64,000 nt of DNA, taken from Forficula auricularia (lineage: Eukaryota; Arthropoda; Insecta; Dermaptera; Forficulidae). Positions within the stretch are counted from its first letter, which is position 1. Each line of letters begins with the position of its first letter. The notes beneath the pieces were generated by a model. It made no database searches. It was given only the letters and a program-made list of their open reading frames with translations, and was not told the origin of the DNA. The stretch lies in NCBI GenBank assembly GCA_024734495.1, contig JALMQS010000061.1, positions 6,191,321-6,255,320 of the forward strand, written 5' to 3'. Positions 1,841 to 63,299 of this stretch are shown here, in pieces. A program made the translations under genes and the position numbers.

Positions 1841-2056
1841 TTTTAATATTTTAAAATCGCAGAGAAGTGGACAAAAAATCAAACAACAGAGTTAGTTATT
1901 TAATTTACCAGACGTTTCGTCACTTTATTGAGACTTCATCAGTGGCTCATTTAATATAACTCTTTATCAAAAATCTCTCAACTATAAGACAGACAGTAAC
2001 GAACATTTTGTTGTTTGATTTTTTGACCAACTTCCGTACGATTTTAAAATATTTAA
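1841..2056. repeat. Fold-back element 1 (inverted arms ~48 bp)
   Basis: The left arm 1841-1888 (containing GGACAAAAAATCAAACAACA) is repeated in inverted orientation at about 2008-2056 with few mismatches. The loop carries a hammerhead-like core on the minus strand. No flanking direct repeat was evident. Confidence 0.75.
1908..1948 (-). ncRNA. Hammerhead ribozyme-like motif, in sense within an intron
   Basis: Minus strand reads GAGCCA-CTGATGA, a 17-nt stem II segment closed by GTC/GAC, GAAAC-GTC, then TGG. This is the full CUGANGA/GAAA/GUH core; CCA/UGG can form stem I. Stem III is only A-U and C-G with no loop, so a single copy could not fold in the classical way and a dimer would be needed. 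It lies in an intron of the minus-strand gene in the same orientation, so it would be present in the pre-mRNA. Motif seen; activity inferred. Confidence 0.55.
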
Positions 2057-2143
2057 TAAAATATGGACGCGAATGATAAATACTAAATATTTTTTTATAT
2101 TTAATTTAAATTAAATGCAGATTTGATAGATAGATAGCCTAAG

Positions 2144-2398
2144 GATAATGAAAAAGCAAATTCTAAATAAAATAATTAATTAGAAGGTACTATAATTTTC
2201 AAAAACTGATTTCTTCCTTCTTCAGAGTTTAAAAGGGCCTATCTCCTTCTTGACTCCTGTAACAATGCTGTTTATTTCGGTGACTCTTTTAAATCCTGAA
2301 GAAGGAAGAGAAATCTTCCGAAAGGTCCGTTTTTGAAAGATTGAAAATAACTTTCCAATAAATTATTTTATTTAGAATTATTTTTTTCATTATCATTA
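2144..2398. repeat. Fold-back element 2 (inverted arms ~65 bp)
   Basis: The left arm 2144-2206, containing TTCTAAATAAAATAATT, is inverted at about 2328-2398. The same outer sequence (TTCCAATAAATTATTTTAT) recurs in a decayed copy near 54250, so it is a dispersed family. A hammerhead-like core sits at the inner edge of the right arm. Confidence 0.7.
2294..2329 (+). ncRNA. Hammerhead ribozyme-like motif (CUGAAGA variant)
   Basis: CCTGAAGA is followed by GGAAG-AGAAAT-CTTCC, a perfect 5-bp stem II hairpin, then GAAA and GGTCC. CUGANGA allows any base at position 7, so CUGAAGA fits. The GAAAC of other copies is GAAAG here, which weakens stem III. Antisense to the host gene. Confidence 0.45.
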
Positions 2399-2531
2399 CA
2401 CTGCCTTTTCTTCAAATCTTTATTAAAATCTACAGCCAACTAAGTTATTCTTATACAAACATGAAAATTCAATTTTGGTCAGGTTTAGGCTAAAAAATAT
2501 CATACAAAAACATATTATTTTATTAACTTAC

Positions 2532-2714
2532 CCAGTATTAAGAATATTGACGTTTTCATCCCGTGCTTTATTTTCCGCCGCTCGTTTTGTTTCCGTGTTC
2601 ACTCTTTCTTTTTTGAGTTTTGATTCTGGAGGTGATTCCAACGAAACACTACTTCTTTCTTCTGGAATGGCATCAAACTGCTGCCGAAACCGTTGTAATT
2701 GACCTCCCCCGGGC
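2532..2714 (-). CDS. Unrecognised Ser/Pro-rich protein, coding exon (9)
   Basis: Internal exon of 183 nt: one base completing Arg, 60 codons, two bases left. Acceptor ATTTTACAG, donor GTAAGT. The peptide begins PGGGQLQRFRQQFDAIPEER and continues with charged Lys/Glu-rich sequence (ESKLKKERVNTETKRAAEN) that could be helical. The upstream intron is only 57 nt, so skipping it in a six-frame reading gives a false extension of the large exon. Confidence 0.85.
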
Positions 2715-2771
2715 CTGTAAAATGTCTACTTTCAAAATTCAGAAAATGAAAAAATGGACAACTGTACGTAC

Positions 2772-7502: not shown

Positions 7503-10500
7503 TAAGAGAGAGACAGTGAATGGTTCAATTTAAAGAGAGACCTTAGAAAAAATTCAAAATATAAAGCCCAGAAGATATAAGAAAAGAGATATTTTATACT
7601 TTGAAAGTATATAATTCAAAAGAGAATATATAAATGTAAAGCCCAAAAGATATAGGAAAAGTAATATATTGTACGTAGAAAGTATTTAATTCAAAAAGGT
7701 CCTAAAATGATTGATATTTTTTTAGTAGCAGAACTCAAGGATTTTCATATTTTTAATATCTAAAAACTGAAATTTCCTAGGCTGCTAGGTAAGTCCTAGA
7801 ATTTTTCGCGAAATTATTTCTAAAAATGGTAGTGATTTTTTTTTGAAAAATATAATCGCATAGCTCAGTAGATCTATGGAAGCTGAATCTCAAGTGTATT
7901 CTTAATGAAAATAGGACGTATGATTTATGTTTATTTGAAATGTTTTAAAAATAATGAAAATGAGAATCAACTTAAAATCACATCTGAGAGTATATCTAAC
8001 AAAAGGTGAAGAAAGACTTGGCAGGCATAAAACGTTCCCAATTAGAATTTGTTTTGTTTTTCAATCTTTTTTCCTACGAAAATGTCATTTTGGAAAAAAT
8101 AAATGCTGGCGGCCAAAAAATGAAAGACCGACCTGAGTCTCAAAAAACTAGCCCGCCATTGAGAGGCCTATAAGTCTAGAAAAACTCTTGTATTCGAGAA
8201 AACAATAGTATATTTAGGATTCGTGACTATTTATCAAAAAATTTCAAGATGTTGCGCCCAAAGAAAATGTCCCGAAGATTTTTATTATCGCTCCTAAATA
8301 TTAGGCAACATTTTGTCTTGTCTGCATTAAAAGTATAACTTCATTAGACGAACCTCATTTTTTGATAGAACTCTGGTCTAAACTGATCTTTTAGTACTCA
8401 AATCTAAACAAAAATCCATTAAACATGTATTTTTACCACGCATGGATTCGATCGAAGAAACCATTAAAATCATCTTCTTCATTCTAATTATAAACTGAAT
8501 CAGCTGATTGATGTGTAAAGAATTAGAGCAGACCACGGACCGATTAAGTGGCCCAGAGCCGATAAACTTGGATATATAAAATAATAAATATATACACGAG
8601 TATAAGCCAGGTTTTTAGATAAATTCCCTAAGGAATTCAAAGGAATACAAATTTAAAATATTTTTAATTAAGCATCTGGTTATATTTTCAACACATCATA
8701 TATCTTTTGTCAGGAAGCTTATAAATATCCAAATTTAGTTAGGATGTAATGAAATCACATTTCATCAAATGTTTCTCTAAATTAATTGTCTTTTAGTGTA
8801 TATCCGGTGGGAAAATCTTGGCAACTATTCAAATTTACTATATGTAGGTATACAATATATCTTTCAATTCATTATTATATATCACAAAAAGAAATAATAG
8901 ATTGAAGGTATTAGAAAAAAATCAATAACTATAATAAACTATTATATTAATAATTTAGATCAGTAGTTCTACCTTTGTATAAATAAATATCTGTTACCTC
9001 TATAGCGACCTTTTCATTTTGAATTTTAATTATTATTATTTTTAGCTTATAAAATACTTTTGAAAATCCAATTATTTAATCTAAAATGAAGGAATTCAAT
9101 TTGGAAAATTAGAAACAATTAAAAAAAATCAACTGAGAAAAGAAATTTTCAAAAAACGAACAAAAGTGAGGGAGAAAAAATAGTATTCAACGAACGATAA
9201 TAAATTATAGACGAAAAAAGCAGATAAGTGCGATTCAGACTCGCATTCCATCAAATTCATTATTTTTTGTCGATGATAAAGAAAAAATAAAGGTATTTAT
9301 ATAGATTTTATTAATTTTACGTTCATAGTGTGGAAATCCCGTTAGATACAAAACTCATGTGAAAATGATCCCCTTTTCATAATTGAATTAAATTTTATAA
9401 AATTCAGCTTAATTCTACTTAAAAAATCTTTTTTTTATAGAGATATCTCATACTGCATTATATTTTTTTTTATTTTCGACCCTGCGAAATTTAGATCATC
9501 CCCAAAAAATTGATTCAATTAAAATTTTAATATGATATTTGATTTCGGGGAAAATAAATATATGTTGTAAATTTCAAGTTTGTATCTTATTGGTATAATG
9601 GTATAATGCTTGACAAGACGACAGACAGACAGACAAAAAGATAATCTATCGACTTATAGAAACCTAAAAAAATCGTCAAATCAAGAATAAATGAAAAAAA
9701 ATTGAACATCGGAAAATTTTAAGTATATTTTGAAATGTCTCCTTTATTATTCACTCTAATATATATTTCATATGAAAAGTTTACCTATTGATTCTCTGAT
9801 GAAGTTTATTTTATTTCTTTGACAAGAATTCAAGAATTCTTAAAAATTTAATTCTGGCTGAATCGTTAATGTATTTTCAAGTGAAATATTTATATTAGAC
9901 TTAAGATGAAAGAATGCCTTTCGAAACTATAGCTTAAAAAAAGGCTTGATTTTTATCCATACGAAAATCCATGTACAAATATCAGAACAGCGATCTATTG
10001 CGTATCACCGGTTGGAGACTTCTGATATAAATATTTATTATTAAAATTAAAATATTAAAATAAGGTAAAAATCTAGTTAAAGCTTGAATTGTAGAAATAT
10101 TTCGCTCTTGGCTACCAATAGGCTAAATAAAAAATTAATTAACTACTGACGATTTAATCGCTCATGGTCATTAGAATATTGACATAAATATTAGTAGGTA
10201 AGGTATCGTATATAATATATTAGATATAGAGATAAAAATATGTTGAAAAAAGTATCAATTAGTCGATATAAATGAAAGATATATTTGAGGTTATTGATTT
10301 TTTTTACTTATAAATAATAATTAACTTTACACACGATCCAAATCAACAAGTACTTTTATTCTGAACAGAAAACAAAAGATATGTCTAGTATGGAAATTAT
10401 TTTAAGAAGATGAATTAAAATTCAATTTATGGTAATGAAAAATTCAATCAATCCTATGACAAACTTAGCAAAGAATCATCAAAGGGAATTAAGAAAGAAA

Positions 10501-11083: not shown

Positions 11084-11648
11084 AAATTAATCACAAGAAT
11101 AAAATTTTCAACAGCTTCATTACTAATAAATATTCAAAATGTATTGCTTGAAACACGTGAAATTCATCCCTGTTCCATTTTTCAACCGAAAATTCCGAAA
11201 CTAGAATGTTTGAAATCTAATCAGTTCTTTGTTTTGAAAATGCCCTAAGAATATCTATGCTCTTCCATTCTCGAGTTATCATTGGGTATTGGAATCAAGG
11301 CAGACTCACATTCATACAAAGATGCAAAATAGCTCTGATGAAAAGTATTTTTCTTTACGTTTCGGACAGTTCTAAATATGATTAAGAAAAAAAAATACAT
11401 TAAGAATTCAAAAGTCCAGACAACAGTTAGGCAAAGCGAACTGAATACCTAATTTTTAAATCAACTGGAAATACAATCAATATTAAAATAAATTGTCTGA
11501 AAAGCTCTAAATAATCACTTCTTTAACGATTTAGTTTAAATTGTTCTTTTTTGAGTAGACATACTTTATTTCTTAACTATCAGTTCAAAGGTTTTCCCAA
11601 AAATTGGAAACATAATACACACAGTATATCACTCGCATCCATAATAAG

Positions 11649-12194
11649 TATTAATTAAAACAGGAATAGCAGGAAATTGGACAATAAAAAAACAGAGTTT
11701 TTATTAAATGGGCCAGACGTTTCGTCGATTTATTTCGACTTCCTCACTGGCTAGAATGACAAAATAGGAAATCAGAAAAAATCTATAAATACATTGATTA
11801 CAAATAAATTTAAATGAAGATAGTTATAAATACCCCATTTTATCACTCTTTGTCAAAAAAGACAATTCCACTGAAAGGAGAAAAAATGTTCAAGATTGTT
11901 GAATAATTGAGGCCAATAATGTATTGTAGTTATAATAAAAATGATTAAAGATGTTTCGTCGCATAGTGGAATTGTCTTTTGACAAAGATTGATAAAATGA
12001 GGTATTTATAACTATCTCTATTTAAATTTATTTGTAATCAATGTAGTTATTTATAAATTTTTTCTGATTTCCTATTTTGTCATTCTAGCCACTGAGAAAG
12101 TCGAAATAAATCGACGAAACGTCTGGCCCATTTAATCCAAACTCTGTTTTTTTAATTTATTGTCCAATTCCTTGCTATTCCTGTTTTAATTAAT
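11649..12194. repeat. Large fold-back element (~225-bp arms)
   Basis: ATTAATTAAAACAGGAATAG opens the left arm and its inverse closes the right arm at about 12194. Arms 11649-11872 and 11963-12194 match closely. Each arm carries a hammerhead-like block (around 11731-11760 minus, 12088-12130 plus) with GACGAAACGTCTGGCC. The catalytic CTGAGGA is damaged differently in each: GTGAGGA in the left arm, CTGAGAA in the right. A dead pair that diverged after the arms formed. Confidence 0.85.
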
Positions 12195-16098: not shown

Positions 16099-16149
16099 CA
16101 ATAGGCTATTTGAACACACGAGGACAACAGATAGAAATAAATTATATAT

Positions 16150-16412
16150 AGATAAATCTTTTAAAAAACAATCTTCAAACGTTTTTATAGGCCCCAAAAA
16201 TTTAGGGAGAATTTCTCCCTTTATCAATAGAATTTTAGATAATCAAAAAAGAGAAAAGAAAAAGTTACTTTTTCTAATGAATAGAAAAATTAGAAAAAGT
16301 ATAATTTTCTTTTTTGATTATCTAAAATTCCATTGATAAAGGGAGAAATACACCCGAAACGTTTGGGGTTTATTAAACGTTTAAAAATTGTTTTTTAAAA
16401 GATTTGTATTTA
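16150..16412. repeat. Near-continuous palindrome
   Basis: From about 16150 to 16412 the sequence folds on itself around 16281, with the arms meeting almost without a loop. The right arm includes TTGATAAAGGGAGAAATACACCC-GAAACGTTTGG, written here in two parts; it resembles the hammerhead layout but has TTGATAA in place of CUGANGA. Confidence 0.75.
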
Positions 16413-16650
16413 TTTTAACAATCAATAAAATTTGTCTTCAATATATATGGTATACATATATTTTTATTTGAATCAAGCAATGAACGCTCTTAACGATTTC
16501 TTCTTAATGAAATAACTTCAGTGAATTTCAATAAAATCATTTTAATTTAATTCAAAAAGACTGTCATTTTTTTTCTTAAATCATGATAAAAATATTAATA
16601 ATAATTCAGATCTTAAGTGAATAAAAGATAAGAAATCAAGGGGGAAATAC

Positions 16651-24865: not shown

Positions 24866-25587
24866 ATATTGATATATTAAGTCAGTTAAAAAATTATTTT
24901 ATTTTATCTCCCCTGAAATATGAATATTATTTCAAGAGATTCACAAGAATAAAAAGGCTTATAAGCTCTACTCTATCCTTGAGGCAGGGTTTCTCAAAGT
25001 ATGAATCACAGGCGGAGTTTTGGTAAGTCGAAAGAAAATGTTAAAAATATTATATCTAAAGAAATGCGAAATACGGAATTTCTCTATGGGAAGTTGGATT
25101 TTTCTCCTTGATAGTGAATAATAAAAAAAATATAGAAATAAACTGCATTCACTATTTCATTGCGTTTGAACATTGAGCACGACATCAATAAAATTAGAAA
25201 ACAAGAGTACACTTATTAAATCTTTGTGCCCGAGCCGTACCTTCATCTGGTTGTTAAATTATGTTTTTACGCGATTTATACTAGCTTCACCTGTATGTAT
25301 GTATGTATTTATTTATTTATCTATGAATGTATCAATGTGACTTTAGTTCTGTTAAATTCCGCAAACATTTCTCTATAAAAATAATTGTTTACCTACTCAA
25401 TTTAAATGAAATTATATAAAAATAATAAAAATAAATACTTAGATATGGTACTATAATGTTTTAAAATTATAAATTGTGGTGTTTTTTGAGGCTCTTGAAA
25501 ACCTTGAAAACAGATGTAATGTCTTCGTTAGGAAAAAGGAAATAAAATTTCTTTATATTCTAACAAATTTATTTTCATGAAAAACTT

Positions 25588-25630
25588 ATGAGACGTTTCG
25601 GCGGATATTCTCACACCATCATCAGTCTGC
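25588..25630 (-). ncRNA. Hammerhead ribozyme-like motif, left arm
   Basis: Minus strand: GACTGATGA, then a stem II segment opening TGGTG and closing CGCC, GAAAC, GTC, TCATAAG. The whole CUGANGA/GAAA/GUC core is intact. It sits in an intron of the minus-strand gene in sense orientation. Stem I is weak (GA/UC). Confidence 0.55.
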
Positions 25631-25737
25631 AAGGGAAACATAATCTTAATTACAGTAAATTACTAATTACATGTCATTCTCAAGATAAAAGAAGAAAAGA
25701 ACTCACCCAAGCTTTTCATAATATAGTAAGAGAGATG

Positions 25738-25780
25738 CAGACTGATGATGGTGTGAGAATATCCGCCGAAACGTCTCATA
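25738..25780 (+). ncRNA. Hammerhead ribozyme-like motif, right arm
   Basis: Same sequence as the left-arm copy, on the plus strand: CTGATGA TGGTG...CGCC GAAAC GTC TCAT. Two intact copies facing each other could pair with one another or act as a dimer. Antisense to the host gene. Confidence 0.55.
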
Positions 25781-25996
25781 AGTTTTTCATGAAAATAAAT
25801 TTGTTAGAATATAAAGAAATTTTATTTCCTTTTTCCTAACGAAGACATTACATCTGTTTTCAAGGTTTTCAAGAGCCTCAAAAAACACCACAATTTATAA
25901 AAATAAATACATTTCATTCTGGGAAATTACACAAACTTCTCTCTATAAAAATAATGAAGACTAAAAAGTAGAAAAATAAATTATATTTAAAAAAAC

Positions 25997-26155: not shown

Positions 26156-27780
26156 TTTTTTTTTTAATATAATTTTTTAAAAAAAAACTTCAATCTAATT
26201 TTAAACTTACATTAATATTTATTAAATAAAAATCTGAAAAAAATAAAGCCACATTTTTATTTACTTTTCTGTCCCCTCGTTACTAGTCAGGTCGGTCGGG
26301 AAAGGTTTATATTTTTAAATGTAGGTCTCGACCCACGAAAGTTAAAGGGGTTAGAAATTGCATGTCTAGTGATGATAGGTTTGCATAATTTCTGGACCGC
26401 CCTTAATCAATTCAATTGAAATGCAAGCAATACGTCTGGTAGGGAGAGACAGCTGGAAATATGTTACTAGCGCAAAGTGTCCTAAATGGTTAGTCATTTA
26501 AGAACCAATCAAACTATAAATTGGTTATTTTCGATGATCATGAGGTGCTTTCAACATTCCAAGACCCTTATTCTAATTATACTTGACTAAGGAATTAAAT
26601 ATAGTGGTCTAGTAATCGTTTGAAAATATTTAGAGAATTTTCTTGGAAAATATTTCCTATGAGTCAAGAAGATTAATATCGCCGGTCTCAACTTTAACAT
26701 GAGGAGTTTTCTATTTTAGATGAATTAGGAAAAACAAAAAATATTATAGTAAAATATATAGTTTTGTCAACTAAGTACAACAAATTGAAAAATATATAGT
26801 AGGGTACTTAATATGTATTTATGTCAAGCGGTTTTTTAAAGCTTTTATCCAAAAATAATACTCCTACTTAATAGAAAACAAAGATACCTAACAGAAGGTA
26901 GTGGGGTAAGGGCTAGAAAAATATTTATATTTTATGTACCCAATAATTAAAATGTGATTTCCTAGAGAGAAGAATTTTTAATTCATAAGAATTAAATTAA
27001 AAATTGTTTCTTCAGCTTAATGTAAATATTTGTGTTTGTTTTGAATCTATATATAGTTTCAAAGACCTTCACTCGTCTTTAGTCAAAAAATAAATATATT
27101 TCACGTAAATATTACAAAATACACATCTTAAAATCCTTGATCGAAAAAGTAGGTATTTTCAGATCTATTTTTTTTTTAATTTATTTAAATATTATAAAAG
27201 AAATATTATTGAAATAAATATTAAGTCTCGATTGATTCCGAATTGAGATTATATATTGAAAAATCTTAAATATTTTTATACCCCGAAAATTTCGCATATA
27301 TTTCAATATATAGGTATATTCGTATATAGATATACATATATTTCTAAATTTATTTTAAAAATTAAATAAAAATTGGCTATACCATTAGATATAAAGTATT
27401 TTTTATTGATTCAAAAAGCAAATAAAAAACACTAATCTGTTTATTCATTGGTATATTTCGACATATGATTTTCCCAATCATGCCAAAGATTTCAAGGTAA
27501 ATTGATCACGTTAGAAATTTAGCTTAGGATTTCTTATAAAAATTGTTAGCTCGTATTGTTGAGCTATGTAATTCATTTAACTTTTAACAAGTTGTAACTT
27601 AGAAATGTATTTTTTGTAGAATGTTACCATTCTGTCATAAAACCTTGTGTTAAATTACTTCAATTAAAAATTTGTTATTTAAAAATGCTGCAGCCAAACT
27701 TGTTGAAGTGATACAATAGAGCCTATATTTTTTCAAAACCCTACTAAGTGCCATAAATTCATAATAAATATTTTCATTAA
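26156..27780. other. Intron stretch, nothing recognised
   Basis: AT-rich intron sequence of the minus-strand gene. I see no exon, repeat boundary or RNA gene that I can support. Confidence 0.4.
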
Positions 27781-28054
27781 ATTGAAAGTTTTTTTGCCGA
27801 GAGTAGCAGAATTTTTATATATTGAAGGAGACAATAAAAGAGTGTGTCTTCTACTGGAATTATAAATTTTATTTATTTATAACGAGACTATAGTTTCGAG
27901 GGCTTTGTTATTCATAAATTAATTCCTGTGAATCCATTGTAATAGACTGATGAAGAGGGCAAAGCCCCTCGAAACTATAGTCTCGTTATAAATAAATAAA
28001 ATTTAAAATTCCAGCAGAAGACACACTCTTTTTATTGTCTCCTTCAATATAAAT
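27781..28054. repeat. Fold-back family A, copy 1
   Basis: Left arm 27812-27902 and right arm 27969-28054 are inverted copies (GGAGACAATAAAAGAGTGTG and onward). The same element occurs at 43561-43853 with the same outer prefix TTGAAAGTTTTTTTGCCGAG. Relative to that copy, this one has lost about 30 bp that held the left-arm CTGATGA, leaving a single complete hammerhead. Confidence 0.88.
27942..27988 (+). ncRNA. Hammerhead ribozyme-like motif, family A copy 1
   Basis: CTGATGA, stem II GAGGGC-AAA-GCCCCTC, GAAAC-TATA-GTC. Here stem III has a real 4-nt loop (UAUA) closed by C-G and A-U, so a single molecule could fold. Stem I is weak (GA/UC then mismatches). Antisense to the host gene. Confidence 0.6.
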
Positions 28055-29480: not shown

Positions 29481-29861
29481 AATTGAATGTAATGGAAGGC
29501 AGCCCATGGGTAGTGAGGAAAGAAAAAATTAACACATATCAAATAAAGTGTAATTTATTGGAATCCTTCCTCCTTTCTTTTCAAACTAATTAAGAAAAGG
29601 AGGGAAAAAAAATTTGTCTTTCTATGCCTTTGTTAAAAAAGAAGAAAGTTTTGAACACTGCTGTGGAGAGAAGAAGGAAACATTTCATTTCATTTGTTTC
29701 ATTCATTGATCCTTTGAAACCCTGAAGAAGGAGGGGAAAATTCTCCGAAACGTCGGTTTGAAAGGAAAGAAGGAAGGATTCCAATAAATTACACCTTATT
29801 TGATATGTGTTATTTTTTTCTTTCCTCACTACGCCTGGGCTGCCTTCCATTACATTCAATT
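29481..29861. repeat. Fold-back element with ~105-bp arms
   Basis: The left arm 29481-29580 (AATTGAATGTAATGGAAGGC and onward) is inverted at 29751-29861. The hammerhead core sits at the inner edge of the right arm. The left counterpart has been lost or heavily changed. Confidence 0.85.
29716..29760 (+). ncRNA. Hammerhead ribozyme-like motif, best stem I in the window
   Basis: AAACC-CTGAAGA, stem II GGAG-GGGAAAATT-CTCC, GAAAC-GTC-GGTTT. Stem I is a perfect 5-bp AAACC/GGUUU helix, stem II has 4 bp or more, and the core is complete with a GUC cleavage triplet. Stem III is C-G plus A-U without a loop, as in minimal dimeric hammerheads. Of all copies here this is the strongest candidate for activity. 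Confidence 0.65.
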
Positions 29862-30075
29862 AAGATTCTACCAGTCCGTCTCTCTCCAGAGAAAATTTCG
29901 TTGCAAAAAAAGTGGATGGAATATTTTTTTCAAAAAAGAACAACTTCTGGGTTTCATACCTGTATTTTAATTATATGAGAATTTATATAAGGGCATCTAC
30001 TAAGATCTTTGATAAAATTGTCCTTATATAAATTCTCATATAATTTATTTATTTATTTTGATTAGTTACGATGCA

Positions 30076-30310: not shown

Positions 30311-30331
30311 TTTATTTATTGAGTTTGTTTA

Positions 30332-34646: not shown

Positions 34647-35218
34647 CTGAAAAATAAAAATTCACTTAATAATTTAAAATTTTTAAAAGTTTCTTTTTAT
34701 ATATTTTGATTTTGATTTTTTTTTTAATTACTTAATTTAACTTTTTAGATTTATTTAATTTTCTAAGTTAAAAAAAAAAAATAATAATTTTTTTAAGTAT
34801 TAAATGAAAGGCTTATTTTTCATTAGTTTTTTAATTTTAAACAGTGTTTTTTTTTTTGTTTTTTTATTATCAATTTATCCAAATATTTCCGAAATTTTGT
34901 ACAATATTCCTTCTTCAATGAACTCCTAAAATCACTGTACTTGTTCAGTCTTCACAAAAAATTAGAACACAGGGCCACAGAGACATTTCAATTTGTTATT
35001 CTTCATTCTGCCCTCAAAATAATAACAATTTTGTTCATATATATAAATTTATTTTTCATGCTTTAAAGCAGTGTTTCTCAACCTGTGTGCCCTGAGAGAT
35101 TGTCAAATGGGCCGCAAGGGTTTTTGACAAATAATTAAAATTACATGGGTTTTGTAATTTTGAAATAGTATTTGTAATTAGCTCAACAGTTACTAAAAAA
35201 TTATTTTAAAATTAATTT

Positions 35219-35549
35219 CTTAGATCTTAGAAAATTGGAAAAATAATTTATTGAATTCAGTGTTTTAAATTGAATAAGTTTCGTCACTATATTTGCGACT
35301 TCTTCAGCCACTTATTCTTCAACTCACTTTTCTGATATTATTAAATGAATAATTCTATCTTTTTTAATTGATCTTATTCTTAAATATATTAATTTTTCAT
35401 CACAGTTAAAATAAAGAATCACAGAAAGTACAATTGTGTTGAAGAATAAGTCGCTCATAAAGTCGCAAATATAGTGACGAAACGTCCGTCTTATTCAATA
35501 TAAAACTCTGAATTCAATTTATTTATCCAATTTCCTAAGATCTTATAAA
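35219..35549. repeat. Inner fold-back within the hAT element
   Basis: TTAGATCTTAGAAAATTGG at the left and its inverse at the right bound arms of about 95-110 bp, both with GTCGCAAATATAGTGACGAA on one strand. Third level of nesting at this locus. Confidence 0.82.
35273..35313 (-). ncRNA. Hammerhead ribozyme-like motif, damaged
   Basis: Minus strand: AGTGG-CTGAAGA, stem II GTCGC...GTGAC, GAAAC, then TTA instead of GTC. The core sequences are kept but the cleavage triplet is altered. The right-arm partner keeps GAAACGTC but has CTCATAA for CUGANGA. Confidence 0.4.
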
Positions 35550-35972
35550 TTAATTAAATTATGGACACGATTCACCAAAAAATATTTTTAAATTAAATTT
35601 GTGTGCCGCAAATAATTCCAGATATTTTTAGTGTGCCGTCAACCAAAAAAGGTTGAGAAGGTTGAAAGGTTGTTTGCTTTAAAGAACAAGTCAGTCAATA
35701 CATTGTTGTTCTTTAAAGCATCAAAAAGAAATCTATATAAATAAAAAAATTGTTATTATTTTTAGGGCAGAATTAAGAATAACAAATTGAAATTTCTCTG
35801 TGGCCCTGTGTTCTCATTTTTGTGAAGATTGAACAAGTACGGTGATTTTTTGGGTCCACTGAAGAAGGAATATTGTACAAAATTTCCGAAATATTTGGAT
35901 AAATTAATTTAAAAAAAAAACACCATTTAAAATTAAAAAACTGCTGAAAAATAAGCCTTTCATTACTTATAA

Positions 35973-37430
35973 GAATCCTCAGCACCACCGGGAATCGAGA
36001 TAATTTTTTTTATTTAATGCCAATTAAAAGTATAAAGAAGATTTGATTTACTTTCGTGCCACAATTATTATACATGATAATCTACAGGTAGTTGTTGGTG
36101 CCAGCCTGAGACTTCCGCGGTGACCTGCTTCCTTAGTTTATCAACTTAGAACAATCAATAAAAGATTTTTATGTTACACCTCCTAATGAAATTATTATCA
36201 TTGTGAATTTATTGTTCACTTCCCCTGAATAAATATTTACTTCACTATGAATTTTAAGCAATATTATTTCAAGTTTAATATTTATATAAATATATATTTT
36301 TTTTAGTTTCCAAATATTCAAAGTATTTAAAAAAAAATTAGTAAATAATTTATTTAGTATTTTAACACTTTAAAGAAATATCCAATGATTAGCAATAACA
36401 CATTTATTTGAACACTTTTCCAAAGGTGCGTCTAAACAGTTTGCCGTTCGAAAGGCAACTGACTATTTAGAGACCGACATCGATTCATTGTGGAGACATC
36501 ACGTCCTATCATTGGAATTGTTCTATTTGGCAACTAACTTTTTTAATAAATTAATATTACAAATGTAATCACAAATCAATAATTTATTTTTTAAGAATTA
36601 ATCATTTAATAGATTTTTTTTAATTATGTACAAGCTTCTGTGTCGAGTTATTACGGAATTCTTCATTTTATTTATTTCCTGGTCAATCAATTGTTCAAAT
36701 TTGCTCATATTTCATATTTTTATGTCAAAATATATTATCCATTAAGTCAGTTAAGCACAAAGTATATAGATACTAATTGCATTTTTGCAATTTAAAAAAA
36801 GTTTGTCTTGTACTCCTACAAAGGGCTTGCCTGATTTTCTAATATAAAAAACTTTTTATAAGAAGATATGGATAAAAAAAATGAAAATTCCTCTCTCAAC
36901 CAAAAAATAACATTTGTCAAAGTTAATAACAAGACTCTTGACCATAAAATGCTTAACATATCAAAATCGTCTAAGCAAGGACCAAATTGGAATTTTTTTT
37001 ACAATTTTAATTCTTTGAAATATTACACACTCTTGATATAAAAATATTTTTAATTTTTGACCCTCCTATCATCTGAAAATTCTAATTTCCAGATGCAGTG
37101 GTTTTCAACCATTTTATTTATGTGTTCCAATACGACCAAAACCAAACTCATAAATCTAAGAAAACATTCACTCAAAAAAATAAACATTATCCAAGTCACT
37201 TTTTTTTATTTTAAAAATATAATTACATTATCTGAAAATAAAAAAATAAAAATTCTCGATCAACAAGAACAAAAAATCAAAAAAATGAAGAAAAAGAAAA
37301 AAATGAGAAGAGAATAAAAAATTTCAAAAACCGCAAAAAATTGAAGATTTTTTTTCTTCTAAAATATGAAAACAATTTTGAAGAGCATCCTTTAATTTTC
37401 ATTCTAATATAAAGAATATATTTTTTTGCC
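35973..37430. other. Upstream intron or intergenic stretch
   Basis: AT-rich; apart from the candidate micro-exon at 36086-36131 I see nothing I can support. A short open frame near 37057-37317 is Lys-rich low-complexity and not credible as a gene. Confidence 0.4.
36086..36131 (-). CDS. Candidate 5' micro-exon (1) of the minus-strand gene
   Basis: A GC-rich 46-nt patch: acceptor CTAAG, donor GTAGAT. Frame KQVTAEVSGWHQQLP exits in phase 0, which would join exon 2 directly (…HQQLP/DSLCNLL…). Enters needing one base. The donor and frame fit, but the acceptor is mediocre and the exon is tiny, so this is tentative. Confidence 0.35.
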
Positions 37431-37577: not shown

Positions 37578-37864
37578 CATAAAGAATATTTTACTGAATA
37601 TTTAATTAATATTACATTATTAATTTAAATTTTGAATATTAAAGTGAAAATTAAAATTATCACGAAAAACGAATAAAATTAAAAAATTCGAATAAGCAAG
37701 AAACAAAATTGAAAAAATATGAAAAAAAAAGAAAATTTCATTTTATTTTCTTCGATCTTTAAAAGATATGAAAAAAATTTCGAAAGGCCTACTTTTATCT
37801 TCTTCCGTACAATATAAATATTTATCAGAAATTAATGAAGCTTTACTAAAAATTGAATATGTTG

Positions 37865-37909
37865 GTAAACTGAAGATAAAGGCAAATCTTTAGAAACTCT
37901 AGTCTCAAA
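37865..37909 (+). ncRNA. Solitary hammerhead ribozyme-like motif
   Basis: CTGAAGA, stem II TAAAG-GCAAAT-CTTTA (5 bp, perfect), GAAAC-TCTA-GTC-TCA. The full core is present with a looped stem III (UCUA). Unlike most copies here it has no inverted partner nearby. Stem I is weak. Confidence 0.55.
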
Positions 37910-38355
37910 TCATAAATGACCCGACTTTTATCAATGTCTGTATTACCAGATATCTCTTGAGTATCACTATAGTGTTGAGAACTGCTGCCCTTAATTAATC
38001 ATCCAATTAAAATTTTATTATTGTATAATATTTTGATTTCGGCTAAAATCATTACATATTGTAAATTTCTTTGAATCTTGTTTAGCCTAGGAGCTACAAT
38101 ATCGTGACAAACATACATCATAGTGCGACTAATAAAATTCCATTTTACATTTGTACAAAATCCAAAAATTCGTACATATCTAAAGACCATTAATAATGAT
38201 TGACTTTTTTGACGTAAGTTGGTGAAATATTATTATATTTTCAAACGAATAGCATTGAATGAATGCATTTCCAAATTTCTTGCGACTGATAATTCAACAC
38301 AAGGAATAAAGGTAGATAGGTAGGTGTATTAAAGTGAATTCTTTGAAGAATTTAA

Positions 38356-40460: not shown

Positions 40461-41054
40461 GCTGAATGGAAAAGAGGGAAAGCAATTTTCCCCTCAACTT
40501 CCACTAATGAATAAGAACTCGCTCGCTTGCATTCGCACTAGATAAATAAATAAAACGTTGACAACTTCAATATAAGCAAATATTGATGCAGGGGCCGTGG
40601 AGCTCTTTGTAAACGCCAAAGAGAGCACAAAATATATAGAATATAATAATAATAGGCCAATAATTTATTTTCATTTAAAACTATAATTTAAATGGATTCT
40701 TATTCCAACCCGAATTGTGAAAATATAAACAAAGTATTTTTTATTTTAATTTTGTGAGTATAAATTGTAAATTTCAATGTACGTATGTTCATAAAAAGAG
40801 AAACAAAGAGGTTGTCCTCTGCTTGATGCAAATAAACATACACACATATATATATCAAATATATATATAGGTATATGTATATATATTATTTATTTGTTTG
40901 AGACTATAGTTTCGAAGGCTTGGCCCTAATCAAAAGTCTTTTTTAATTATAAATATTATTTTTCATGGGGTCAGTATAGCGTAGATATGGAAAAAAATTT
41001 CCTCCTTTTTTAGATAAAATGTTCTAATATTTTTATTTACTTTTAGTATAATAC

Positions 41055-42722: not shown

Positions 42723-43660
42723 AAAACTATAGATTAATCCCTGGACCCCCCCCCCACCACCACCACCACCACATCTCCCCCACCATCGCTCCCGCCCCTC
42801 ACCCAGTTTTTCCATTTCAAGCCTTGTAGTGGCCTACAGATTATGTGTATATTTGTATAGGTATATAAATAAATACCGTATAATAATTTTTTTAAATTAA
42901 ATAATTTTTTAATTCATCAATTAAATTGCCAAATTCTAATATAGAAAAAATACGTTTATGGGATTTAAAACTCGATTTTTAATTAAATAAATTGTCTAAC
43001 TTTTAAAATATATAATATATATATAATAATACTACGATATAGGAGTATTTTATCTAGATGTAACTCCAAAATTGTAATAGCTAAAAATCTGAAAATTCTG
43101 AAGGATAACTACTATTATAAGGATAAAGTCTATAGAGTTTCAAATTTTTTGAAACATTACTTTGGCCGGAATAAGAAATTGATCGTTCCATGCCAAAAAC
43201 CCCATGTTATTTAGATGAGAGACTTAATCGCTGTGTAGCACTAGGTTAAAATTTAGATAGAGACTTGAAATTTGGGGGATAATTTTTTTTTTATTTATTT
43301 CTAACCATATGAGGCCCTGTCAGCGTAAATATTCGAAAATATCCAAAATAAGGAGCACCCTAATACATACCGTATAATATAATATACCGAATATAAATAT
43401 CTCTCATTTGCTGCAACACCGACATAACTCAAAAAACTGTGATTTTCCTGGAGGATCTTTATACACTTTTGACGTGTAATAACTTGATATAATATTATTC
43501 AATCGAAAATAATTTATCAGCATGTTTTATTGAAAGTATACAATATAAAAGAAGAAAATTGAAAGTTTTTTTGCCGAGAGAAGCAGAATTTTTATATATT
43601 GAAGGAGACAATAAAAGAGTGTGTCTTCTGCTGGAATTATAAATTTTATTTATTTATAAC

Positions 43661-43703
43661 GAGACTAGAGTTTCGAGGGCTTTGTCCTCTTCATCAGTCT
43701 ATT
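43661..43703 (-). ncRNA. Hammerhead ribozyme-like motif, family A left arm
   Basis: Minus strand: GACTGATGA, stem II GAGG-ACAAAG-CCCTC, GAAAC-TCTA-GTC-TCG. Complete core with a 4-nt stem III loop. Antisense to CCDC28. Confidence 0.58.
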
Positions 43704-43741
43704 ACAATAATTATATAAATTAATTCCTGTGAATCCATTGT

Positions 43742-43789
43742 AATAGACTGATGAAGAGAGCAAAGCCCTCGAAACTCTAGTCTCGTTAT
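43742..43789 (+). ncRNA. Hammerhead ribozyme-like motif in sense in CCDC28 intron 1
   Basis: GACTGATGA, stem II GAG-AGCAAAGCC-CTC, GAAAC-TCTA-GTC-TCG. Complete core with a looped stem III. It lies in intron 1 of CCDC28 on the transcribed strand, so it would be made with every pre-mRNA. Confidence 0.6.
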
Positions 43790-44069
43790 AAATAAATAAA
43801 ATTTATAATTCCAGCGGAAGACACACTCTTTTATTGTCTCCTTCAATAAAAGAAGAAGTTATTTTCCAATGAATATATCAAGTTATTTCAGTTTCCTGAA
43901 AAATCACAGTTTTTGAGTTATTGAGTTGTTGCAACAAATGTATATATACACATACGCCTCTACACCCTTTCGATTGATCAATTTTCCCTTTTCTTCGGTA
44001 ATGCAAGGTTCTTTCGAGATCCATAGGGGCTGCATCTTCCTTCTTGCATTCAATTTCAGTAAAAAAAAA

Positions 44070-44325
44070 AAAATATTTGTTTGAAACTATTGTTTCGTAG
44101 GTTGACCTTCATCATCAGAGTCTTTTAATTAGAAATGTTTCATCTGTTGATTATCATGGATTCGTTTATTATGTTGCTAGCTTGTTATAACAAAACGAAT
44201 TTTTCTATATCCAATCGAATAATTGAACTCATGAGAGATAACATATAAAATATTTTCTAATTAAAAGACTGATGATGTTCAAAGCTTCGAAATTATACCT
44301 ATTTAGTTTCAAACAAATAAATTTT
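44070..44325. repeat. Fold-back element, related to family A
   Basis: AAATATTTGTTTGAAACTAT at the left and AGTTTCAAACAAATAAATTT at the right bound arms of about 75 bp. The left arm carries, on the minus strand, CTGATGATGAAGG...CTACGAAACAATAGTT, a hammerhead with GUU as triplet. The right arm keeps CTGATGATG but GAAAC has become GAAAT. Confidence 0.75.
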
Positions 44326-46971: not shown

Positions 46972-48617
<1,646 letters not shown>

Positions 48618-53945: not shown

Positions 53946-54405
53946 ATTAAGTTAAGAGCGATATAATATTATTTTTAATTTTAAATTCAGATAAAAAGGT
54001 CAATTTTAATTCCCATTCAAGATAAAATAAAATTTCATTTATTTTTTTGCCAATGTTTACACCCGCTATAGCCATCATCAAGACATATTATCACTGGGCA
54101 CAAAGTTTTGAATGTAATTGTAATTAAAAATAATATTAATTAATATAATATACCGACACGAAAGATTCTTTCGTTGACCCTTTTAAATCCTGAAGAAGGA
54201 GGGACGATCCTTCGAATTGTAAGATATTTTAAAAGAATGAAACTGATATTCTCTAATAAATTATTTTATAGAAAATAGAAAAATACCTTTAATTAATTAA
54301 ATTGAATAATTTAAATATATAATAATATTTGTAATGATCTTTATATGGAATTTAAAATTGAAAAACCAATTAATTATTAAAAGGAAATTGAATAAAAATA
54401 TAATA

Positions 54406-56720: not shown

Positions 56721-56739
56721 CATAGGTTACAAAAAGAAG

Positions 56740-57664: not shown

Positions 57665-58035
57665 TTTTAATAAAAGATAAAGACATAGATTATTAAGAAA
57701 AATGAATATCCTTGAATATATATGTATTTCAAATTAATATTTAATCCTATTTCCAACTATAATAGGCATGTTTCTTAAAATTTTTGACATAAAAGTGAAG
57801 TTATCAATTAATTTACAATTTTATTTTTAAATTTTGTTAATTTATTATTATTTATATATCTAAATGTTATATTAATTATTTATGATAGGAAATTATACAT
57901 TCAATAAATATATAATTATTTTAATGAGGTTCAAAGTAAATTATTATTATCATTTCCGTCGATAATTTGTATTAATTTGAAAGTTTATAATAGAAAAATA
58001 AGGACAGGTTTTTATGTGTGACTTTTTTATTTATC

Positions 58036-58076
58036 AGCCAACGTTTCGTCGACTTTAAAAGACTTCTTCAGGGCTT
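58036..58076 (-). ncRNA. Hammerhead ribozyme-like motif, left arm
   Basis: Minus strand: AGCC-CTGAAGA, stem II AGTC...GAC, GAAAC-GTT-GGCT. Stem I AGCC/GGCU is a 4-bp Watson-Crick helix, core complete, cleavage after GUU. Confidence 0.58.
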
Positions 58077-58115
58077 CAAATAGTCATACCACACATTCGT
58101 CTAAATTTTCTATAG

Positions 58116-58158
58116 TAAGTCCTGAAGAAGTCGGCAAAGTAGACGAAACGTTGGCTGA
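58116..58158 (+). ncRNA. Hammerhead ribozyme-like motif, right arm
   Basis: AGTC-CTGAAGA, stem II GTC-GGCAAAGTA-GAC, GAAAC-GTT-GGCT. Stem I keeps pairing through a U-G wobble (AGUC/GGCU) although one base differs from the left arm. Confidence 0.58.
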
Positions 58159-58868
58159 TAAATAAAAAAGTCACACATAAAAACTTGTCCTTATTTTCCT
58201 ATTATAAACTTTCAAATTAGTTCAAAGTAAATTCAAAAATTACTGCAAAAATATTATGACGAAAATTATTCAAATCCAAAAGAGTAAGATTGGGAAAGGA
58301 GTTATGTTAAAAGTCAAATCTCTTTAATTTCGACCAAATTTTCTACAGTTACTCGCCTTTAGGACACGGCGAAAATATTATGGCAAAAATCAACTCCGTA
58401 AATAGATAGAGCGTGAGAGAAAGGAAATTGAAGTCCTAATTCCGATCCTGGATAAAAGGGCTAAGTAGCTATTTTTTCAGAGATCAGAGGCCTTAACTGG
58501 TACATATGGGCTTCCAAATTAATTCTCTTTAAATTGTTTACATTATGTTTGTATGTGTTGTATGTAAATTATTATATTTCAAATGTCAGAATTAAGTGAA
58601 GATTACTATCTTAGAACTTTAGTAAGAAAAGAAAGCCTTTATTTACAATAGTTGTTGAATGAAAATAAAATTAATTTTATATCATGAATCGTATTTTTGT
58701 TTTCTATCTCATGTATCTTTTTTATCTATGTTCTATCCTTTTGGAATTGCCATACCATTTCCAATGAAATATTTTTTTTAATTGTCTCTGCATAATTTAG
58801 CAAAAAATATATTATATAATATTAATTATTATATATTAAATATTTTATAATATTATTAATTATTAATT

Positions 58869-59804: not shown

Positions 59805-60000
59805 GTAATTAAATATAAATTTTAATTGAAGGAATCGTAGGAAGTTGGACAAGACTTTAAATTAAATTAAATACAAGTTTTGATTAAATATGCCATACGT
59901 TACCGTTGCTGTTTTGCAACTTCTTCAGTGGCTCGTTATTTAACTTATTTGTCGGATTTTTTACTACGAGAAAAACATTTCAAACAATATTCTTTTTTCT

Positions 60001-60397
60001 TTTTAGGTTAAAAAGAGAATAAAATGAGAGTCTCGTTTTTGAGCTAAAATAATTTTTAATTATTTCTAGAGACTATAGTTTTCGAAGGCATTGCCTTCAT
60101 CATCAGTCTATCACAAATATTTCAAATTGGTTACAAAATTAAGAATATATATTCTAATCTCCCAAGAGGAAACATGAAAAAAAGACATTATATATTTTTC
60201 AAAATTTTCACTGTATAATTTTAATTTAATACTAATTTGAAATATTTGTGATAGATCGATGATGAAGGCAATGCCTTCGAAACTATAGTCTCTAGAAATA
60301 ATTAAAAATTATTTTATTTAAAAACAGAAGACTCTCATTTTATTTTATTTAACCTAAAATAAAAACAATTCTGTTACCATCGACAGTGAAATCATTT
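60001..60397. mobile_element. Fold-back inserted with a 12-bp target duplication
   Basis: The 397-bp unit is itself an inverted repeat (arms 60003-60135 and 60233-60360) and is bracketed by ATTCTTTTTTCT at 59989-60000 and 60398-60409. Removing it restores the pairing of the outer fold-back. This is direct evidence that these fold-backs move as units and make a target duplication. Confidence 0.85.
60066..60110 (-). ncRNA. Hammerhead ribozyme-like motif in the inserted fold-back
   Basis: Minus strand: TAGA-CTGATGA, stem II GAAGGC-AAT-GCCTTC (6 bp, perfect), GAAAA-C-TATA-GTC-TCTA. Stem I TAGA/TCTA pairs fully and stem III has the UAUA loop. There is one extra A in GAAAC. The right arm copy has GAAAC intact but TCGATGA for CUGANGA. 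Confidence 0.52.
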
Positions 60398-61121
60398 ATT
60401 CTTTTTTCTATCACAATTCATTCAGTTCATCAATAACGTAAAATATAAACATCTTTTAAATAAGTGATTGCTTATCATAAAAACTAAAGAATCACATTGA
60501 ACAAAGAAATTTTTTATGTACATAATAATCTTCTTCAATGACAAATATAAAATAAAAAAAATTTCTTTGTTCAATGTGATTCTTTAGTTTTTTGACAAAA
60601 ACAATTAATTTGTTTAAAAAGTTTATATTTTATGTTAGTTGATGAATTGAATGAATTGTGATGAAAAAAGAATATTGTTTGAAATGTTTTTTCTCGTATG
60701 AAAAAATCCTGACAAATAAGTTTAATAAACTCAGCCACTGAAGAAGTTGCAAAACAGCAACGCAACGTATGGTATATTTAATCAAAACTTGTATTTAATT
60801 TAATTCTAAAGTCTTTCCAACTCCCTACGATTCCTTTAATTATTAATCATGGACACGAATAATGAAATATAAATTTTAATTTTACTTTAAAAAAACAAAA
60901 TTAAATTTTAGTATCAAAAATCTTATTAGAAATGTAGAAAGGCGCCATGTAAAATAATGATGACAAGCCACATGATTTTTAATAAAACATTTTTTATAAT
61001 TAGATGCTGTCTTGAGGTATTTAAGCCCTTTAAACCAGATGCGGTGTTCAGATGAAGACATGGAATTTTATTCAGGTTGAATAATGAAATGTATTGTCTT
61101 GTTTAGATTTTTTATTTTCAA

Positions 61122-61166
61122 ATCACGAGACCGTTTCGGCAGAGACTCTCCACCATCATCAGTTTT
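61122..61166 (-). ncRNA. Hammerhead ribozyme-like motif
   Basis: Minus strand: AAAA-CTGATGA, stem II GGTGGAGAG...CTCTGCC, GAAAC-GGTC-TCGTG. Complete core; stem II opens GG and closes CC, with an inner GAGA/UCUC-like pairing. Antisense to the plus-strand gene in whose presumed intron it lies. Confidence 0.52.
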
Positions 61167-61703
61167 TGATTTTTTCTAAAAAGTACCACTTTTAAAATTT
61201 TCAAAAAAATTCTCTAAATAGATAGTAGTTTCATAAACTACTATGTAAGGTATAATGATGGGATGGTAATGGGGTCTATGTTTAAAAAAATTATTACTGA
61301 CTCTTGTTTTTCATAAATACCCAGTTTTGACCAAATAATAATGATTTTAATGTAGTGAAACGACATTTTATGAAAAATCACTTTGTGTATATTAAACTAT
61401 GGTTATGAAATAAACACTCTGTGCTAATTAAATAACTGTTTAATAGTAGAGATTAATAATAGTCCTATAAATGCTTTCATGAAAAATATGAATGCATTGT
61501 ACTTTAAATTAGTCTTATAAAAATATTAGTAAAAACTAAGACAAATAAAACACCAACATTTTAAATAAAATTAAATCAATTTATGCTATGTCATGAAAAG
61601 TTAGTTAATTTACAATAAATATTGTTGTAGGCTAAATAGTTTAATAAGCAAATGTTATCTGAAATAGAAATTTCCCTTGCATTCACTTGATCCAGTCTCT
61701 GCA

Positions 61704-61910
61704 GTTTTTTTTTTTTTTTTTTTTTATCAGTGGGGAAATGCTTTTACGCACGCACTTGGCGAGAGGACTACCCGATAAAACCCCAGACTTTCAACCTTCT
61801 CCCCCCCGGAAACCGCCAAAAAGCATTACCACTGCAGGTCTAGTAAGTTAGAACCTGTCTGTGGTTAGTGAGCAAGTTAAAACAAATACCAGTGTGCCAA
61901 AAGCCAGGCT
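61704..61910 (-). mobile_element. Retroposed fragment with poly(A), target duplication
   Basis: Reads with a T20-type run at its left end (a poly(A) tail on the minus strand) and is bracketed by GTCTCTGCA at 61695-61703 and 61911-61919. Body includes CACTTGGCGAGAGGACTACC. LINE-mediated retroposition of an unidentified RNA. Confidence 0.8.
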
Positions 61911-62137
61911 GTCTCTGCAAGCATTCATTCAGTGACTGAGAGTCCTTGCTGACAAAGTAGTGTTTTAAATGTTAGCAATGTCTAAGTTATCAATTCCATA
62001 ATGTAAAATAGTTGTTATACCTTACATAAAACAATTGATTCTTTAAACTTCTGTTTTTTTGTGTGTTTTAATAGCTAATTTAATCTATGATTAAAACTTG
62101 TAATTAAAAGGCAAAGTTTAAGACATTTTTAGAAAAT

Positions 62138-62393
62138 ATGGAAACTATTGAAAAATGCAGTACTGTGGTAAGAGTTCAGTGTTGTAATCCATTGAAGAAA
62201 ACAAATCATCCTGTTAGAGATAGAAAAACTGAGAAATGTCACACCTTGGGTGACAGGTTCATTTCCACTTGATGGCCCGGATGATTTGCGATCAGTTAGA
62301 AAACCTAACCAAAGTTACCAAAGCATAGTGCTGAAAAGTGATAAAAATTCTGAAAATGAAGAGTTCTTCCGGTTTGAAGTGTATACCAAGTGA
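62138..62393 (+). pseudogene. Broken coding segment in the loop of an inverted repeat
   Basis: ATG at 62138 reads METIEKCSTVVRVQCCNPLK, KTNHPVRDRKTEK; one frame over, the reading continues LRNVTPWVTGSFPLDGPDDL, RSVRKPNQSYQSIVLKSDKN, SENEEFFRFEVYTK, stop. Codon use and the smooth hand-over suggest one protein with a single frameshift near 62235. I do not recognise it. It may be a captured host gene fragment or a transposon ORF. Confidence 0.4.
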
Positions 62394-63299
62394 TTTTTTC
62401 ACAAAGTGTCGTGTTCTCACATTAAAATCATTATTATTTGGTCAAAACTGGGTATTTATGAAAACAAGAGTCAGTAATATTTTTTAAACATAGACCCCAT
62501 TACCATCACATCATTATACTTTGCATAGTGGTTTGTGAAAGTACTATCTATTTACAGAATTTTTTTGAAAATTTTAAAAGTGGTACTTTTTATAAAAAAT
62601 CAAAAATTGATTTACATTTTGAAAAAAAAATTATTACAACCTATGTCATGTCTTGTATGAAAAGAGCATTAAAAAAGATGCAAAATGACACCTGTCCCAC
62701 TCTCTCTAACTCAATTAAGACAACTTTTAGAGCAGTTTCAAAATTGTTTGTTCGTGGTTTTTTTTGCGATTTTTTGAAAACTTCACAAGGCCGTATAAAA
62801 AAAAACTATTCAAGATAAAAATTTGAAATTTTGTATTTTCATTCATATTAGCACAATATATCAGTGTATCAAATTTCAACAAAATCTAAAGTGGTGAGGT
62901 AAAATTTTTATTTAAAGTGTGTTGATTTGGCACGGGATGACTCATAAATAAAGTGAGCGCTTACCAGTGTTTGAATTACATAGTGCTCAATATAAGTTCA
63001 TAGTATACAGTAAGAAAAACATTTGATATGTTTCAATTACATTTTTGTAATGCTATAAAATATATATAATATAAATATCAACATTTCACTCAGTGAAAGG
63101 TTCAGATCAATTAATATGGATATGTACATAATTGTGTTATGTCCTTCATACTAATATATGTAAAAAATGTACAGTGAAACATATGAGACATTGACATTAG
63201 TGATGTTATATTCAAAAAAAGGAAAGAGGTCTCCCATTTAGGTCCACTTATGCTATCTTACTCCACGGTCAACTACTTACACTCACATAAGGCACAAGT

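Follow-up and report, generated by a model that had tools for sequence, protein, structure and literature searches.

A window of 64,000 nucleotides (nt) of AT-rich DNA from Forficula auricularia (contig JALMQS010000061.1, positions 6,191,321 to 6,255,320; the whole stretch analyzed, to which all counts refer unless stated otherwise) harbors a family of fold-back repeats that carry hammerhead ribozyme (HHR) cores. This family is real and well supported by the observations below. At a probability of roughly 0.7, we take its members to be insertions without an open reading frame (ORF), made in trans by Penelope-type retrotransposition machinery, and they are probably stripped-down, non-coding footprints of Penelope-like elements (PLEs).

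Hammerhead cores in outward-facing fold-backs

In a pattern count, the motif CTGANGA..GAAAC occurred 13 times, as compared to 0.63 expected occurrences, and none of 100 shuffles got to that number. Cores whose stem II has 3 bp or more numbered 17, as opposed to 0-2 in 20 Markov simulations of the window. When the halves of 38 fold-backs were shuffled and mirrored, 40 replicates yielded no core at all, whereas 18 were observed (nested fold-backs make some cores count twice). The first-pass annotation, which had proposed a hammerhead-core family in fold-backs and named shuffled inverted repeats as its control, is thereby borne out on this point.

Self-comparison of the window listed close inverted repeats in 49 rows, some rows being fragments of the same repeat. 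Two covariance models built here (R1 and R2) gave 31 merged matches at E ≤ 0.01, including 20 training sequences. Twenty-five of the matches fell within 16 fold-backs, which are thus selected for holding a core (Table 1); one match (61120-61172) lies just beyond the arm of its fold-back (I) and was counted with it. The HHRs point outward in all 16 fold-backs, with one site (1902-1952) judged by eye, as the script had called it inward because its end overshoots the midpoint by 3 nt. Partner scores of the sites at 1942 and 16333 were barely above the best background and that of 44118 was below it, so these three pairs rest on the self-comparison. Among the six matches outside the 16 fold-backs, 13828-13879 shares part of its length with 13852-14275, a decayed fold-back, although this site (13869) pairs best in outward orientation with 16136-16184, outside that repeat; for the other five, the partner search returned no inverted partner above background score. 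One further site (21171-21219; E = 0.013) fell just short of the cut-off. The stretches 13564-13829 and 16136-16430 are related in inverted orientation, the former being a decayed relative of fold-back h about 2.5 kb away.

These counts support the earlier claim to the extent that the copies lie mostly in head-to-head pairs. The cores had also been placed at the inner ends of the arms, which does not always hold: in 11649-12195 the core lies ~175 nt from the center, and in 61158-62611 it sits at the outer end of just one arm. Nor does every arm carry a core: several fold-backs keep a single recognizable one, and many of the window's inverted repeats lack a core altogether.

Pairing of both stems is conserved across the family. 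To the 20 cores hand-set among the 25 sites found, two partner arms were added, giving 22; exclusion of the five decayed sites (9900, 15051, 21181, 35307 and 54190) favors pairing. Positions 1-4 of stem I were paired in 20, 19, 13 and 15 of these 22 cores (shuffle means 12.8, 10.2, 7.2 and 10.3), with several pair types used next to the core; stem I had no part in site finding, and the cleavage triplet was placed by eye. Positions 1-3 of stem II were paired in 22, 21 and 22 cores, counts that are biased because stem II served to find the sites. With one arm per element (n = 16, the better preserved arm), stem I pairs numbered 14, 13, 9 and 11, positions 3 and 4 being weaker (p = 0.02 and 0.05 by shuffling). 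In a 13-row alignment, covariation of stems I and II reached 0.72 compared to 0.23 after shuffling (0 of 500 shuffles as high), and 87.8% of stem cells paired, above all 500 shuffles and as compared to 28.7-42.6% once partners were slid by 1-3 columns; two other measures were weaker (40/500 and 21/500). The core persists, as had been suggested, in families with different arms, the fold being kept via base-pair covariation. Folded on their own, the copies 29708-29768 and 12078-12136 adopt both hammerhead stems in their minimum-energy structures, as does 35436-35510 apart from an additional pair in the core. Selection on the ribozyme fold during spread, also put forward in the first-pass annotation, is tenable for source RNAs only, since resident copies show core decay (for example 2225-, 35307-, 35454+ and 60255+).

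With CUGANGA and GAAA flanking stem II and a closing stem I, the cores are of hammerhead type. Helix III is either absent (GAAAC-GUC/GUU) or replaced by a 4-base loop (GAAAC-TATA-GTC), and its segments are exactly palindromic in 11 of 20 cases by script and in three more (F, GL, uR) by eye; the remainder are not. PLE-type minimal HHRs are of this form: their helix III is missing or very small, and its self-complementary sequence allows it to be built between two molecules of a dimer. Such minimal type I HHRs, mostly without helix III, are described by the thousands in animal genomes and in the pseudo-LTRs (pLTRs) of PLEs, and may act as dimers (PMC7761336; PMC6155905); according to the review among these sources, every available PLE sequence has HHR motifs, usually minimal and without helix III (PMC6155905). 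The present copies share with them the GAAAC-GUH junction or 4-nt loop, the mostly self-complementary helix III and the scattering in non-coding DNA. They differ in that A9 and stem II are separated by an extra base in 21 of 22 cores (15 A, 6 T), a departure from the standard type I HHR. The same one-base insertion occurs in a viroid hammerhead. Scanning with the Rfam hammerhead models, a check that had been suggested beforehand, gave no match at the gathering cut-off in the window; at E ≤ 10, the window and three short stretches returned no hammerhead, only sub-threshold, palindrome-driven matches. We attribute the silence of these models to the extra base and to the lack of helix III, yet it is a real negative.

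Insertion ends and Penelope-like architecture

Each HHR fold-back is one insertion, demonstrably so in six cases. Target-site duplications (TSDs) were scored as exact direct repeats within 60 bases outside each arm end, with a cut-off of at least 20 bits; an earlier, looser test of 38 fold-backs had allowed one mismatch. At this cut-off, TSDs were found in 6 of the 16 HHR fold-backs (F, E, n, l, e and y; 12-17 exact bases), in 0 of 22 other fold-backs and in 0.39% of 1282 mismatched left/right flank pairs. By arithmetic, the chance that six random TSDs among 38 fold-backs would all land in the 16 is ~0.003. The 22 others include 13852-14275 (decayed core, weak partner match), 43405-43940 (which encloses fold-back y) and 10770-11079 (possible weak core, E = 0.26).

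In all six bounded units, one TSD copy abuts or slightly overlaps an arm end and the other lies about 20-48 bases out, therefore leaving exactly one arm tailed. Measured from the start of stem II, the near ends lie at 93 (e), 90 (y), 90 (E), 93 (F) and 94 nt (l), and the far, tailed ends at 116, 133, 121, 119 and 134 nt, respectively (114 for F under the longer TSD reading). In the longer fold-back n, the far end lies at 180 nt and the short end at ~130 nt by coordinate arithmetic. The string ATGGACACGA recurs beyond the otherwise diverged arms of F (60849-60858) and v (35561-35570, past the right arm), and the tail of e carries the variant ATGGATGCGA (11633-11642, minus strand); this shared tail motif is perhaps part of a reverse-transcription start signal.

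These features have counterparts in published PLEs. As described for Adineta, a typical Penelope consists of pLTR-ORF-pLTR plus an inverted pLTR, with a 9-bp TSD around it; the same source gives TSDs of 8-10 bp, an optional 31-bp tail on one inverted pLTR, head-to-head as the arrangement met most often and, in a few cases, solo pLTRs that enclose unrelated sequence and are flanked by TSDs (PMC3846280). The head-to-head layout, which the first-pass annotation had singled out as the novel part, is thus the known layout of PLEs; worth following here is the asymmetry of near and far ends, in units small enough to read whole. For a purified Anolis PLE, reverse transcription is reported to start 111-118 nt into an ORF whose own start is hammerhead stem II. 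The enzyme cuts each of the two strands and extends it; what lies between two start sites forms the tail, and insertion in vitro still occurs with hammerhead mutants (PMC11167929). Since the strands in the experiments described there were alike in start site, the near/far asymmetry of the fold-backs is not predicted by them (PMC11167929).

Like elements of the Penelope/Poseidon group, the fold-backs comprise head-to-head inverted terminal units with a TSD around the whole insert (6 of 16), a tail confined to one arm (all six TSD-bounded units), an end near 111-118 nt past stem II, a minimal HHR in the unit and AT-rich targets. They differ in having no ORF or pLTR-ORF-pLTR body, in the presence of several diverged families within 64 kb, and in the lengths of TSDs (12-17 versus 8-10 bp) and tails (20-48 versus 30-40 nt). 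Save for the near/far asymmetry and the missing ORF, they fit PLEs wherever DNA can show it. Terminons share the PLE-type HHRs, but are described as giant and telomere-attached (PMC6431247).

If Penelope-type machinery made these insertions, each unit would be two 5'-truncated pLTR copies set head to head without an ORF, each running from at or upstream of the minimal type I HHR to an internal point at which reverse transcription had started, ~90 nt past stem II in the short arm and ~115-135 nt past it in the tailed arm. The putative enzyme, a GIY-YIG/reverse transcriptase (RT) protein of a PLE, would cut both strands of an AT-rich target, and synthesis of complementary DNA (cDNA) would be primed from both sides of the same break, making both arms cDNAs of one event. 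The ends copied from the 5' side of the RNA would then meet and be joined mid-unit, and filling-in of the staggered cut would leave the 12-17 bp duplication. The hammerhead itself would cleave. A weak hint of this comes from fold-back n, where left-arm homology begins 1 nt beyond the predicted cleavage site (29754/29755), as if a cleaved RNA had been copied; it may be chance, because other arms missing a piece begin elsewhere than at the predicted cleavage point.

Routes to a head-to-head pair

Among the routes by which the pairs could have formed, two-sided (twin) priming has the edge because it explains the two different outer ends. Comparing 15 of the 16 elements (I was left out), we found that 25 of 30 arms have their sibling as the closest match within the window. 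Sibling arms were 85-98% alike, and best matches of at least 70 nt to other elements 77-86%, except for l and y (96-97%). Because the sibling is so often the closest relative, the pairs look made anew at insertion, which favors, as judged from the arm sequences, fresh formation over inheritance of an old fold-back.

A single cDNA that bends back on itself to prime second-strand synthesis would likewise yield a head-to-head pair, from one RNA, and we regard such self-priming as a possibility of real, if minor, weight. It has been proposed for Penelope on an antisense template and was the route favored by the authors for rotifer copies owing to palindromes at the junction (PMC3846280). The near-identity of the arms in j (98%) and in F and y (96-97%) is consistent with it, as are the short spacers (28-104 nt) of y, l, E and j. 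On its own, however, self-priming gives no pair of different outer ends with one tail, as seen in all six bounded units, and in E, whose arms are 91% alike, the two stem II loops are not the same; two templates would explain this, but so would mutations acquired later.

It is rather unlikely that the fold-back itself is what moves, being copied in one piece as a non-autonomous element that inherits its asymmetric tail. Inherited asymmetry would account for one tail per unit, and l and y indeed align as entire units, spacer and left tail included (88% over 298 nt), and their TSDs differ. The predominance of sibling-arm matches argues against copying of this kind, with the caveat that gene conversion between arms could blur that evidence.

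Doubtful to a greater degree is that the conserved role of the hammerhead is RNA pairing and not cutting, with the self-complementary helix III (ACGU, ACUAUAGU) joining two template RNAs into a dimer. In a sequel that we hold to be just as speculative, a dimeric PLE protein would hold the RNA dimer, each RNA would be primed from a different strand of a single target cut, one RNA at the near start and the other at the far start, and the cDNAs would be sealed head to head. If true, this would account for the one-tail asymmetry, the outward orientation and the spread of ORF-less pairs, and would explain why the motif persists though cleavage mutants still insert in vitro (PMC11167929). Both the completion of PLE insertion and the role of the hammerhead are described as open questions in the sources consulted (PMC11167929, PMC7761336).

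We consider it very unlikely that the fold-backs are metazoan retrozymes, HHR elements based on circular RNAs (circRNAs), in inverted instead of tandem arrays. Retrozymes share the type I HHRs in short, non-coding units, and TSDs of more than 4 bp are known for them (PMC7229834). As described there, however, they are direct tandem repeats of 150-450 bp in multiple copies that give rise to circRNAs, not tailed head-to-head pairs (PMC7229834), and no tandem HHR array was found within the window. Slimmer still is the chance of ordinary miniature inverted-repeat transposable elements (MITEs) or fold-back DNA transposons with the motif by chance in their terminal inverted repeats: the window does hold many other inverted repeats and a Tc5/CENP-B-type transposase remnant, but the 22 other fold-backs lack TSDs of the kind seen in six HHR fold-backs, whose 12-17 bp exact duplications and asymmetric ends, one of them tailed in 6 of 6, are unlike symmetric repeats flush with the TSD on both sides.

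Several observations weigh against insertion by Penelope-type machinery in trans. In ten of the 16 HHR fold-backs, no TSD reached the 20-bit cut-off. Assignment to the PLEs rests on structure and not on sequence identity to any known PLE. No PLE RT was found: ORF lists and Pfam analysis of 18 ORFs returned no PLE RT/GIY-YIG ORF in the window, where a frame-shifted remnant could escape, just as the first-pass annotation had seen no RT to drive the repeats. The fold-backs therefore cannot be called autonomous PLEs; non-autonomous copies would lack this ORF. Inside the fold-backs, ten ORFs checked for coding remnants gave nothing credible. The left arm of a and both arms of l and z find their closest match in another element. 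Fold-backs l and y have their tail on the same side, and their right arms extend equally far. Of their informative sites, one internal site groups the arms by element, as fresh formation would, and one junction site groups them by side, as unit copying would, a 1:1 split; end trimming accounts for two more columns that group 'by element'. Half of the six copies folded alone (43734, 25728 and 58027 on the minus strand) fold partly or wholly otherwise at minimum energy. The extra base and the Rfam silence leave room for a non-cleaving HHR relative. As for the literature, the titles and abstracts retrieved from open-licence sources do not describe ORF-less hammerhead fold-backs as a family, which is no proof of absence as key PLE studies lie outside that scope.

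The sixteen small ORF-less units represent measurable reaction products, six of them with both ends, a TSD, a tail and two recurring start positions. With them, twin priming, self-priming and unit copying become models separable by a genome-wide count.

Feature catalogue, related cores and other repeats

Table 1. Locations of HHR fold-backs, single HHRs and further features; plus and minus signs give the strand.
Feature	Positions	Strand	Composition and remarks	TSD
Fold-back l	27779..28048		left arm with 39-nt tail, truncated left HHR, spacer, HHR 27947+, right arm	ATAAATATTTTCATT at 27764-27778 and 28049-28063
Fold-back y	43557..43845		HHR 43697-, 43748+; left tail 40 nt	ATAAAAGAAGAA at 43545-43556 and 43846-43857
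Fold-back E	57943..58219		HHR 58071-, 58122+; left tail 20 nt	GTTCAAAGTAAATT at 57929-57942 and 58220-58233; overlaps final 10 aligned bases of right arm
Fold-back e	11624..12192		HHR 11747-, 12092+, each with core change; left tail 25 nt; arms reach at least 111 nt upstream of HHR	ATAATACACACA at 11612-11623 and 12193-12204
Fold-back n	29483..29909		HHR 29722+ only; right tail 48 nt	AAGTGGATGGAA at 29471-29482 and 29910-29921
Fold-back F	59828..60859		HHR 59928-, 60738+; right tail 17-22 nt; spacer holds two more fold-backs (59983-60375, 60397-60674)	59806-59827 and 60860-60881; 22 bp with 1 mismatch, or 17 bp exact under stricter test
Fold-back j	25455..25913		HHR 25625-, 25742+ at inner ends; arms 98% identical	no clean TSD
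Fold-back G	59983..60375		nested in F; HHR 60106-, 60255+
Fold-back b	2111..2427		HHR 2296+, decayed HHR 2225-
Fold-back a	1837..2061		HHR 1942-; right arm without HHR
Fold-back u	34787..35976		HHR 34918- (weak), 35859+; fold-back v inside spacer
Fold-back v	35210..35555		HHR 35307- (7-nt deletion), 35454+ (core decayed, stem I intact)
Fold-back p	30081..30314		HHR 30214+; short left arm	candidate, low-complexity: ATTTATTTATT, 16.6 bits, under cut-off used
Fold-back z	44068..44325		65% palindrome, decayed; HHR 44118-, weak 44259-44317+
Fold-back h	16146..16413		stems I and II kept, CUGANGA decayed; model match 16323-16372+
Fold-back I	61158..62611		arms upstream of HHR 61162-; right arm stops at core
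Single HHR	37860..37913	+	no inverted partner; sole core without extra base before stem II
Single HHR	40893..40946	-	no inverted partner
Single HHR	9890..9942	+	no inverted partner; decayed core
Single HHR	54180..54230	+	no inverted partner; family of b and n
Tc5/CENP-B-type transposase remnant	54478-54954	-	Pfam
Exon-like ORF with CCDC28 domain	48078-48617	+	Pfam
771-aa ORF	2732-5047	-	no Pfam domain above cut-off
IMG/VR cores	L004-L016, e.g. L004:4418-4452, L012:6730-6763, L016:3208-3242		CTGATGAT-stem II-GAAACGTC

Fold-back j is surrounded by a 39-bp direct repeat (85%; 25347-25385 and 25917-25955), one copy of which lies ~70 nt beyond the left arm. As a TSD of j, this repeat was rejected, being too diverged beside arms that are 98% identical. 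The inverted repeat at 44590-45040 is devoid of a hammerhead and has a candidate 15-bp TSD (1 mismatch; 12 bits in the stricter test) and a one-sided tail; it was possibly made by the same mechanism as the HHR fold-backs.

Beyond the window, three exact HHR patterns returned 0, 0 and 0 records from viral contigs, and a fourth, with an extra T and no helix III written in, matched 13 IMG/VR contigs. The stem II region forms 5-7 bp in 12 of these 13, the first two base pairs being fixed by the pattern, and covaries through the pair sets GGCTGG/CCAGCC, GGCTCG/CGAGCC, GGCCGG/CCGGCC, GGCCGA/TCGGCC and GGCCCGG/CCGGGCC; in the thirteenth (L007), a single base breaks the stem. Several of the cores have a CCCG/CGGG flank. 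Genome contigs contributed matches in three bacterial loci (GC 0.56-0.63), all three taken as chance; in two of them (L001 and L003) the match lies in a long open frame. Over these 16 loci, model R1 gave 15 matches at E ≤ 1 (best 29 bits), and Rfam gave no family matches. The IMG/VR cores may be RNAs of hammerhead type that share the extra base and lack helix III, which suggests this form to be a natural fold in virus-collection contigs too, albeit with a pattern that preselected those features. They bear nothing on the PLE question.

With respect to the remaining features of the window, the CCDC28 ORF probably belongs to a host gene. An RT fragment on the plus strand (51499-52320; 61 homologues, 17 with RVT_1) is the only RT found in the window and, by its motifs, presumably of LINE type. 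It sits between the inverted arms 51200-51457 and 53191-53388 of a repeat without a hammerhead. Two further fold-back-like repeat families without clear hammerheads, 7319-7503 / 30330-30540 and 45861-46111 / 50618-50870, are probably MITEs.

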